From: Meridianimarinicoccus roseus
GTDB taxonomy: Bacteria > Pseudomonadota > Alphaproteobacteria > Rhodobacterales > Rhodobacteraceae
Direction of reading: 5' to 3'
DNA length: 64,000 nt
NCBI RefSeq assembly: GCF_003172915.1
Contig: NZ_QGKU01000026.1
Coordinates: 1 to 64,000 of the forward strand
Numbering within the stretch: position 1 is the first letter of the stretch; each line of letters opens with the position of its first letter. The notes beneath the pieces were generated by a model, which was not told the DNA's origin, ran no database searches, and was given only the letters and a program-made list of their open reading frames with translations. This document shows positions 56,658 through 60,129 of this stretch, one piece after another. The position numbers and the translations under genes were made by a program.

Positions 56658-57905
56658 TCAGGCGGCGCGCAGGCCCTTCAGTGCCGCAAGAAAACCTGGG
56701 ATCTTTTCCTTGAACCGGAAGAACCCGTGTGTCGCGTGCGGCCAGCATGCGGCGTCATGGGGCCGCAAGACGCGCACAAACGGCACGCCCGCGGCATCAA
56801 GCGCCGGGGCCAGTTCCTTCATCGCGTCCGCTGCCGGGCCCACGGGCGCATAGGGCGTCACCAATTGCCCTACGCCGCCATCGCGCGCCCAGTCGACCAC
56901 CTGTTCGACCCACCCGGTCCGCGCCGCGACGTGCTGCGCCGGGCCTAAGCGCGCCGCGTGCCGATCAAGTGTGTCCTCCAACGCCCCAGCCGCGAAGGCT
57001 GTGACGGGTGGTGACGTCTCCAGAGGGCTGCGCCGACCAGTGCAGTTCAGAACGCATACCGGCGCGGGCGGCTCTGCGCCCGGCAGAAACGGGAAGCCCG
57101 CAAGCTGATCTTCCTCGGTCAGCAGCCAGCCCGTCCGCCGCTCGGGATCCGGCGTGTCGCCCGTCGGTGCAGGCCCGCGCGCGGGCACGGGCGGGCTGTC
57201 CACTGGATCTGCCCGGCCTGCCAGTTGCCCGCGCGGGTCGAACCGCCCCTCGGTGTAACGGGCGATGTTGTCGGCCCGCGCAACGTAGGTCTTGCCTGGC
57301 GTCTGGATCCCAGCCACCCATCGCCAGCCCAGCGTGTTGGATGCCGGATCGCCGTCCAGCAACTGGCGCAGGAACAGGTCCGCGCCAAGCTCCCACGGCA
57401 GGCGCAGCGTGAAGATCCAGATCGAAGCGAACCACATCCGCGCGTGATTGTGCAGGTAGCCCGTCGCCGTCAGTTCCCGCGCCCAGGCATCGAAGCAGTC
57501 GATCCCGGTCTCGCCGCGACAAGCCGCTTCCCAGTCCGCGCGTAGTCCGGCCTCGGTCGCCAGCCGGTCCTGTCCCGAGCGCACACCCTGCCGGTACTGG
57601 TCCCACACACCGGGGCGCAGTTCCAGCCAACCCTTCCAGTAGCTGCGCCAGTACACCTCCTGCACGAACTTCTCGGCCGTCGCGGGCGAGAACCGTCCCA
57701 GCACTGCCTGAAGCACCTCGGTCTCGCTTAACATCCGGTGGCGTATGTAGGGCGACAGGCGAGACACTCCGGCATGTCCCTGTTGCGGCAGGTCGTAGTT
57801 GCGCCGCGCGGCATAATCGCGCCCCGCACGCGGCACGAACTCGGCCAGCCGGTCTAGCGCGGCACGCCGGTCGGGCGGGAAGGTGAGGGGTAGGGCATCG
57901 GTCAT
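56658..57905 (-). CDS. cryptochrome/photolyase-like protein with domains in reverse order
   Basis: 415 residues from ATG 57905. Residues ~40-225 form the FAD-binding helical domain: SRLSPYIRHRMLSETEV, EVYWRSYWKGWLEL, NHARMWFASIWIFTLRLP, then WELGADLFLRQLLDGDPASN and TLGWRWVAGIQTPGKTYVAR. Asn190, Trp194, Trp196 and Trp171 match residues N378, W382, W384 and W359 of E. coli photolyase. The N-terminal antenna domain is missing, but residues ~258-410 look like that alpha/beta domain placed at the C-terminus. A photolyase or light-sensor role is possible. The gene stands alone. Confidence 0.78.
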   Translation of the reverse strand: MTDALPLTFPPDRRAALDRLAEFVPRAGRDYAARRNYDLPQQGHAGVSRLSPYIRHRMLSETEVLQAVLGRFSPATAEKFVQEVYWRSYWKGWLELRPGVWDQYRQGVRSGQDRLATEAGLRADWEAACRGETGIDCFDAWARELTATGYLHNHARMWFASIWIFTLRLPWELGADLFLRQLLDGDPASNTLGWRWVAGIQTPGKTYVARADNIARYTEGRFDPRGQLAGRADPVDSPPVPARGPAPTGDTPDPERRTGWLLTEEDQLAGFPFLPGAEPPAPVCVLNCTGRRSPLETSPPVTAFAAGALEDTLDRHAARLGPAQHVAARTGWVEQVVDWARDGGVGQLVTPYAPVGPAADAMKELAPALDAAGVPFVRVLRPHDAACWPHATHGFFRFKEKIPGFLAALKGLRAA

Positions 57906-58100: not shown

Positions 58101-58733
58101 ATGACCGACCCGATCGAGACCTACATGAACACGCTGGTCCCCATGGTGGTGGAGCAGACCTCGCGCGGGGAACGTGCCTACGACATCTTCTCGCGGCTGC
58201 TGAAGGAGCGGATCATCTTCGTGTCCGGCCCGGTGCATGATGGGATGTCCTCGCTCATCGTGGCGCAGCTTCTGCACCTCGAGGCGGAGAATCCTTCCAA
58301 GGAAATCTCCATGTACATTAACAGCCCCGGCGGCGTGGTGACGAGCGGGCTGTCGATCTACGACACCATGCAGTATATCCGCCCCAAAGTGTCGACACTG
58401 GTGATCGGCCAGGCGGCGTCGATGGGCTCGCTGCTGCTGGCCGCCGGCGCGCCGGGGATGCGGTACTCCCTGCCCAACAGCCGCGTCATGGTGCACCAGC
58501 CCTCGGGCGGCTTCCAAGGGCAGGCGACGGATATCATGATCCACGCCGAGGAGACGCTGAAACTGAAGCGTCGCCTGAACGAGATCTACGTCCACCACAC
58601 CGGCCAGACGCTGGACGCGGTGGAAGCGGCTCTGGAGCGGGACCGCTTCATGTCGCCCGAGGATGCGAAGGACTGGGGCCTGATCGACGAGATCGTCGCG
58701 AACCGCGCCCCGGAGGAGCAGAAAGGCGCCTGA
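58101..58733 (+). CDS. clpP: ATP-dependent Clp protease proteolytic subunit
   Basis: 210 residues. Catalytic Ser107 in [16 protein letters not shown], His132 in [14 protein letters not shown], and Asp in the following [12 protein letters not shown] region. [20 protein letters not shown] is typical. It assembles as a 14-mer and degrades proteins fed by ClpX, whose gene follows 133 bases on. Confidence 0.97.
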
Positions 58734-58814: not shown

Positions 58815-58866
58815 CATGTGATACATGAAAGACGGTCAGGACGGTCGGTCGGCCCCGGAGGTACGG

Positions 58867-60129
58867 ATGGCAAACAACACGAGCGGTGACGGCAAGAATA
58901 CGCTTTACTGCAGCTTCTGCGGCAAGAGCCAGCACGAAGTGCGCAAACTCATCGCCGGGCCGACGGTGTTCATCTGCGACGAATGCGTCGAGCTATGCAT
59001 GGACATCATCCGCGAGGAGACGAAGTCGACCGGGCTGAAATCGTCCGAAGGCGTGCCGACGCCCAAGGAAATCTGCAACGTGCTGGACGACTATGTGATC
59101 GGGCAGGCGCACGCCAAGCGGGTACTTTCGGTTGCGGTGCACAATCACTACAAGCGGCTGAACCACGCCGGCAAGACCGAGGTGGAACTGGCGAAGTCGA
59201 ACATCCTGCTGATCGGCCCGACAGGCTGCGGCAAGACGCTGCTGGCGCAAACGCTGGCGCGTATTCTCGACGTTCCGTTCACGATGGCGGACGCGACCAC
59301 GCTGACCGAAGCGGGTTATGTTGGCGAGGATGTGGAGAATATCATCCTCAAACTGCTGCAGGCGAGCGAGTACAACGTGGAGCGCGCGCAACGCGGCATC
59401 GTATATATCGACGAGGTCGACAAGATCACGCGCAAGTCGGACAACCCGTCCATCACGCGCGACGTGTCCGGCGAAGGGGTCCAGCAGGCGCTGTTGAAGA
59501 TCATGGAAGGCACCGTCGCATCGGTGCCGCCGCAGGGTGGCCGCAAGCATCCGCAGCAGGAATTCCTTCAGGTCGACACGACGAACATCCTGTTCATCTG
59601 CGGCGGCGCCTTCGCGGGGCTGGACAAGATCATCGCGCGGCGCGGCAAGGGGTCGGCCATCGGCTTCGGTGCCGAGGTCAAGGACGACAGCACGCGCGGC
59701 ATTGGTGAATTGCTGACCGAACTCGAACCCGAGGATCTGCTGAAATTCGGCCTGATCCCGGAATTCGTCGGCCGTTTGCCCGTGATCGCCACGCTTGAGG
59801 ATCTGGACGAAGACGCGCTCGTCACGATTCTTACGCAGCCGAAGAACGCGCTAGTGAAGCAGTACCAGCGCCTGTTCGACCTTGAGGACACGCAACTGTC
59901 CTTCACGGATGACGCACTGCTGGCCATCGCCAAGCGGGCCATTGCGCGCAAGACCGGCGCACGCGGCCTGCGGTCGATCATGGAGGACATCCTGCTCGAT
60001 ACGATGTTCGACCTGCCGACTTCGGAAGGCGTCGAGGAGGTTGTCGTCAACGAAGAGGCCGTGACTTCGGACGCGCAACCGCTTCTGATCTACGCCGATC
60101 GCAAGGGGGAGCCTGTCAGCGCAAGCTGA
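58867..60129 (+). CDS. clpX: Clp protease ATPase subunit ClpX
   Basis: 420 residues from ATG 58867 (GGAGG 6 bases before). Zinc finger Cys15, 18, 37, 40 ([11 protein letters not shown] and FICDEC), Walker [13 protein letters not shown], Walker [12 protein letters not shown], sensor and substrate loop [12 protein letters not shown] with pore GYVG. It unfolds proteins for ClpP. The [15 protein letters not shown] box is conserved. Confidence 0.98.

Follow-up and report, generated by a model that had tools for sequence, protein, structure and literature searches.

Photolyases with inverted domain topology are already in print. NewPHLs and SPLs (short photolyase-like proteins), which PMC13274461 treats as one group with inverted topology and among which it lists A8LJA9 of Dinoroseobacter shibae, include members from D. 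shibae and Methylobacterium mesophilicum, with CPD repair in single-stranded DNA (PMC9426592, PMC13274461). The D. shibae NewPHL is credited to Emmerich et al. 2020 in PMC9426592 and PMC13274461, the SPL to Xu et al. 2021 in PMC9649867, PMC9178010 and PMC9498864, and the D. shibae enzyme is said in PMC8948257 to have "a mere Trp dyad". In PMC9649867 SPLs are described as having no alpha/beta domain and as possible ancestors of the family, an ancestor proposal that is also reported in PMC9498864. Inverted photolyases of cyanobacteria comprise Phr4/5, Phr6 and Phr7 (PMC9426592); in that account Phr7 is placed nearest Phr4 and Phr6, Phr6 is given a C-terminal DNA photolyase domain, and the Z-domain is regarded as an atypical, short photolyase domain.

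A Rhodobacterales gene beside clpP and clpX

The window, i.e. the whole stretch of 64,000 nucleotides analyzed here, carries on its minus strand an ORF (56658..57905) that starts with an ATG at 57905, ends with a stop codon at 56658 and encodes 415 amino acids; an upstream GTG would extend the product to 442. We assign it, with a probability of about 0.92, as the NewPHL (SPL) photolyase of its Rhodobacterales genome. The order of FAD domain and then C-terminal domain, the orthology with D. shibae, a Trp dyad and the lack of Fe-S cysteines all correspond to the NewPHLs. The protein has neither the set of four Fe-S cysteines that marks the FAD domain of Phr4/5 and Phr6 nor the antenna domain ahead of the FAD domain that marks canonical class I.

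The orthology was examined in genome G358 (6 contigs, 4.4 Mb), which is taken to be D. shibae because the first 3000 bases of plasmid pDSHI01 match it exactly, at a contig start. At E ≤1e-5 the search with the family profile gave two matches there: L231, which is full-length (617 bits, profile positions 4-403 of 407), and a partial one (11-198). Since no other match in this genome is full-length, L231 is equated by us with A8LJA9. It shares 57% identity with the window protein over 414 aligned columns. The window gene has clpP as its divergent neighbor (58101..58733, plus strand), adjoined by clpX (58825..60129, plus strand). Among the 80 best loci, with flanks of up to 4 kb, ClpP is encoded in 71 and ClpX in 70, and both are present in the D. 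shibae locus. Sequence and gene order together make the window gene and the D. shibae gene syntenic orthologues, the latter in a genome named by its plasmid match. A common operon with clpPX is ruled out: of the 71 loci with clpP, 70 have it on the other strand. The two proteins share the FAD domain followed by a C-terminal Z-domain, the clpP-clpX synteny, the lack of a Trp equivalent to E. coli W306 and the lack of a common Fe-S cysteine set, and nothing was found between them beyond ordinary sequence divergence. The window gene is an ordinary orthologue of an already known, described enzyme.

Relatives are numerous, far beyond chance: at least 591 of the 593 stretches of genome_contigs matched by pattern code for one. 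The best 80 of these at least 591 relatives are 47-69% identical to the window protein (best segment) with near-complete query coverage; the majority are presumably Rhodobacterales, going by their names, and the titles of three name Alphaproteobacteria (n=2) or Gammaproteobacteria (n=1). A frameshift or truncation artifact is ruled out by the 80 full-length relatives. The family alignment (A1) and the C-domain alignment (A2) comprise 65 of the 80 loci and the window protein (66 rows), and residue conservation was counted over 96 family rows, from which L119 and L136, with no ORF through the filter, were excluded. A phage link is not indicated, since in viral contigs none of seven pattern matches was confirmed with A1 and none of two with the Deinococcus protein, and query coverage stayed below 80% in each of the 10 phage records that matched. 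Plasmid relatives were also observed, one (L129:1749-3855) adjoining an NAD(P)-binding protein gene and two (L130:6001-8603 and L137:1692-4233) adjoining an AarF/ABC1/UbiB kinase gene.

Domain layout and the nature of the C-terminal domain

The FAD/DNA-repair domain comes first, at residues ~8-228 (57222..57884, minus strand). The sole domain listed by Pfam is FAD_binding_7 (E 1.8e-25), at residues 80-227, with positions 1-144 of its 203-position profile matched, and phmmer aligned residues 8-227 to residues 199-413 of E. coli photolyase 1dnp (E 3.3e-19). Because residue 8 of the window protein already corresponds to residue 199 of 1dnp at the start of this alignment, the usual N-terminal alpha/beta domain is absent. 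No DNA_photolyase domain was found in the window protein by Pfam, with most matches above about E 0.1 filtered out, and the family profile had no full-length match among PDB chains. A linker (residues ~229-257; 57135..57221, minus strand), modeled without helix or strand between the helix at 211-217 and the strand at 258-263, leads to the C-terminal alpha/beta domain (Z, antenna-like; residues ~258-410; 56676..57134, minus strand). An initial annotation had placed the FAD domain first, the antenna-like domain last, and had noted the absence of the usual N-terminal domain; the first and third points are upheld by these alignments, and the second by fold (AF2, Foldseek) and, through Deinococcus intermediates, by sequence.

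The AF2 model of the whole protein (66 sequences) has a pLDDT of 95.3 and a pTM of 0.93, all of its pLDDT blocks being above 90 but two (78 and 89), and residues 252-415 modeled alone reach a pLDDT of 91.1. In both models the last domain is a five-stranded beta/alpha repeat, with strands at residues 258-263, 281-286, 320-326, 347-351 and 376-379 and helices at 299-315, 332-342 and 357-371. Near the C-terminus lies a strongly conserved G-F-F-x-F-K motif (residues 394-399; 56709..56726, minus strand), in which G394, F395 and F396 are invariant and F398 is at least 90% conserved over 66 rows.

Is this domain a relocated antenna domain, or a different HUP/USP-type alpha/beta domain that has been fused on? 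The second possibility we regard as unlikely, though it draws on several of the comparisons. When the C domain alone was submitted to Foldseek, the match ranked first by E-value (5.2e-3) was 1q77, a universal stress protein, and there were no matches at E 0.001 or better, which favors a fused HUP/USP domain. Against it, photolyases and cryptochromes account for 16 of the 50 listed rows (1340 at E 10), with TMq of 0.42-0.59, and for all 14 of the 50 listed rows with TMq above 0.45, and the top non-photolyase fold among those 50, the universal stress proteins, reaches 0.45. From the fold, Foldseek having supplied no aligned ranges, we infer that the photolyase matches fall on their N-terminal domains.

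Profile comparisons with hhalign used 31 canonical N domains (L086 excluded by choice), with 26 of 30 Usp, 25 of 30 nucleotidyltransferase and 24 of 27 response-regulator domains kept as controls; a first run had used 25 of the 31 canonical proteins, the six without the start motif being dropped. The window-family C domain matched the canonical N domain at 28.5% (E 6e-4, 97 collinear columns), compared with 14.9% for Usp, 0.5% for nucleotidyltransferases and 0.4% for response regulators, and none of 300 column-shuffled canonical profiles reached the observed score (maximum 23.1 vs 29.1); both results speak against the fused domain. However, the canonical N domain itself matches Usp at 60.5%, so that 28.5% alone indicates superfamily kinship at most, and this, too, the HUP/USP explanation can claim. 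It can also claim that a sequence search of the PDB with the A2 profile gave two weak, unrelated matches and no photolyase.

The bridge between the two domains comes from Deinococcus. Three plasmid proteins (L128, L134, L135) have the same FAD-first order, and in two of the three a C-terminal DNA_photolyase domain (PF00875) is detected at E 7e-4 and 1e-3, below the Pfam cut-off; none of four other proteins scanned has PF00875 at its C-terminus. Against the canonical N domain the Deinococcus C domain scores 97.2% (E 3.8e-11, 132 columns), and against the window-family C domain 57% (E 1e-4, 100 columns). The latter value rises to 67.7% when the row from Deinococcus sp. QL22 is added, and to 84.7% (E 6.7e-6, 126 columns) with the Persicobacter rows as well. 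These values argue for the antenna domain and against a HUP/USP fusion. On the side of the fusion stand other values: with query and template swapped, the window family matches the Deinococcus C domain at only 5.6% (40 columns), the second ORF of QL22 scores 93.6% with the canonical N domains but 18.1% with the window family, the pair of Persicobacter C domains by itself gives no match (≤3.3%), and the Deinococcus and combined profiles match Usp at 27.2% and 43.1%, respectively. The QL22 photolyase is split, its plasmid (L233:1390-2681) encoding a 257-amino acid FAD ORF that overlaps a 173-amino acid ORF labeled "hypothetical".

This domain is probably an antenna-domain relative in reduced form, closing the FAD site instead of bearing an antenna chromophore. 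The C-terminal domain of NewPHLs seals the FAD site, and in the window protein it would, by carry-over from its class, pack on that site in the same way.

Flavin, lesion pocket and predicted activity

Residues of the FAD domain with roles in FAD binding, lesion binding and electron transfer are retained almost without exception. E83, W86, N153, M157, N190, W194 and W196, which correspond in that order to E. coli E274, W277, N341, M345, N378, W382 and W384, do not vary in any of the 96 rows; this includes N190 (57336..57338, minus strand) and W194 of the Trp dyad (57324..57326, minus strand). The other Trp of the dyad, W171 (57393..57395, minus strand; E. coli W359), is Trp in 95 of the 96 rows. 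The retention of N190, W171, W194 and W196, noted when the sequence was first annotated, is therefore confirmed by the mapping to E. coli. The third Trp of the triad, E. coli W306, is replaced by T117, and no row of the 96 has Trp at that column. In 20 of the 96 rows a Trp does occur in the columns that correspond to window residues 108-118, near the lost triad position, where it may serve as an alternative third Trp, but the window protein itself has none there. As to an Fe-S cluster, the cysteines of the window protein (129, 137, 284, 288 and 387) and of the D. shibae protein (128 and 312) do not yield a common set of four.

Compared with E. coli class I CPD photolyase (1dnp), the window protein has the same kind of FAD domain and the same lesion-pocket residues, but it differs in domain order, lacks the third triad Trp and leaves the end of the FAD domain unmatched. 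Like Phr4/Phr5 and Phr6 of Synechococcus/Cyanobium it has the reverse domain order; unlike them, as they are described in PMC9426592, it has neither the four Fe-S cysteines nor a C-terminal DNA photolyase domain recognized by InterPro. It resembles Phr7, as characterized in the literature, in having no Fe-S cluster cysteines. With SPLs it shares the absence of the N-terminal alpha/beta domain and an FAD domain near class I, but the described SPL has an Fe-S cluster, for which the window protein has no such cysteine set.

The likeliest assignment of the window protein is to the ordinary NewPHL photolyases; its predicted substrate, carried over from the proteins of D. shibae and M. mesophilicum, would be CPDs in single-stranded DNA. 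In the proposed mechanism, the N-terminal domain would bind FAD, and the cyclobutane dimer would be held by the pocket of E83, W86, N153, M157 and W196; blue light would excite reduced FAD, which would pass an electron to the dimer and split it, and FAD would be re-reduced via W194 and W171.

A quite different role, that of a cryptochrome-like sensor flavoprotein which no longer repairs DNA and uses the C-terminal domain for signaling, is improbable. CryB of Rhodobacter sphaeroides does affect gene expression (PMC3320616), and two further FAD_binding_7 proteins are encoded in the window genome, so that repair by this one may be redundant. However, CryB is placed in another subfamily, the prokaryotic 6-4/FeS-BCP proteins (PMC9178010), every one of the 96 rows keeps the lesion-pocket residues, and the characterized members repair CPDs (PMC9426592, PMC13274461). 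Two canonical-order photolyases are present in the window genome (G000:C41:5521-6906 and C24:105134-106510). There is also a weak DNA_photolyase match at C32:55233-55496 (E 0.004), the product of which we take to resemble a PhrB/CryB-type protein.

Origin of the inverted order

That the gene represents a wholly new photolyase class made by circular permutation is scarcely credible: the reverse order and an FAD domain unmatched past profile position 144 of 203 could be read in that way, but inverted photolyases are in print and a Rhodobacterales protein has been characterized (PMC9426592, PMC13274461, PMC8948257). The initial annotation had supposed the class to be undescribed, and this has to be given up in view of NewPHL/SPL, Phr4/5, Phr6 and Phr7 (PMC13274461, PMC9426592) and of the D. 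shibae orthologue. Its suggestion of a circular permutation survives as one possible route to the present order, but gene fission and fusion fits equally, because the same order is also seen in split form, in Deinococcus sp. QL22, where the FAD and alpha/beta domains are separate, overlapping ORFs, and in Synechococcus as phr4/phr5 (PMC9426592). The QL22 split form resembles phr4/phr5 in a different phylum.

An unrooted FAD-domain tree was built from 73 of 76 rows, the three L232 ORFs without an FAD domain being dropped. It contains the window protein, 12 loci drawn at random from the 80, 15 further alphaproteobacterial relatives, two Persicobacter, four Deinococcus and 39 canonical proteins, with order labels that we assigned ourselves (30 Z-type, four Deinococcus-type and 39 canonical, DASH and other kinds included). 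The 34 inverted rows are split from the 39 canonical rows by a branch with 100/99 support, and for the canonical rows a single change was counted in 100% of 200 bootstrap trees. The Persicobacter rows, labeled Z, join the Deinococcus rows (96/90) and are among six flagged for unusual letter composition. Being unrooted and sampling only 12 of the 80 loci, this tree gives no indication of which order arose first.

We lean, with some reserve, toward the view that the C-terminal domain of the NewPHL/SPL group is the canonical antenna alpha/beta domain, relocated in one lineage to a place after the FAD domain and then reduced, from Deinococcus-like forms, to the Z-domain. The FAD-domain tree together with the Deinococcus bridge tips the balance toward SPLs having, at their C-terminus and in reduced form, the alpha/beta domain that they are described as lacking. 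In the description given in PMC9649867 SPLs have no alpha/beta domain, unlike the window and Deinococcus proteins, which carry one after the FAD domain; the antenna-domain reading of the SPL C-terminus was partly anticipated in PMC9426592. If it is true, SPLs do not simply lack an alpha/beta domain, and the picture of a short, one-domain ancestor of photolyases and cryptochromes needs revision, unless the inverted order is ancestral. This side result would bear modestly on photolyase evolution, SPLs having been proposed as ancestors (PMC9649867). On two Persicobacter plasmids (L234:1657-4198 and L235:1531-4153), an inverted short photolyase ORF overlaps a canonical-order photolyase ORF on the same strand.
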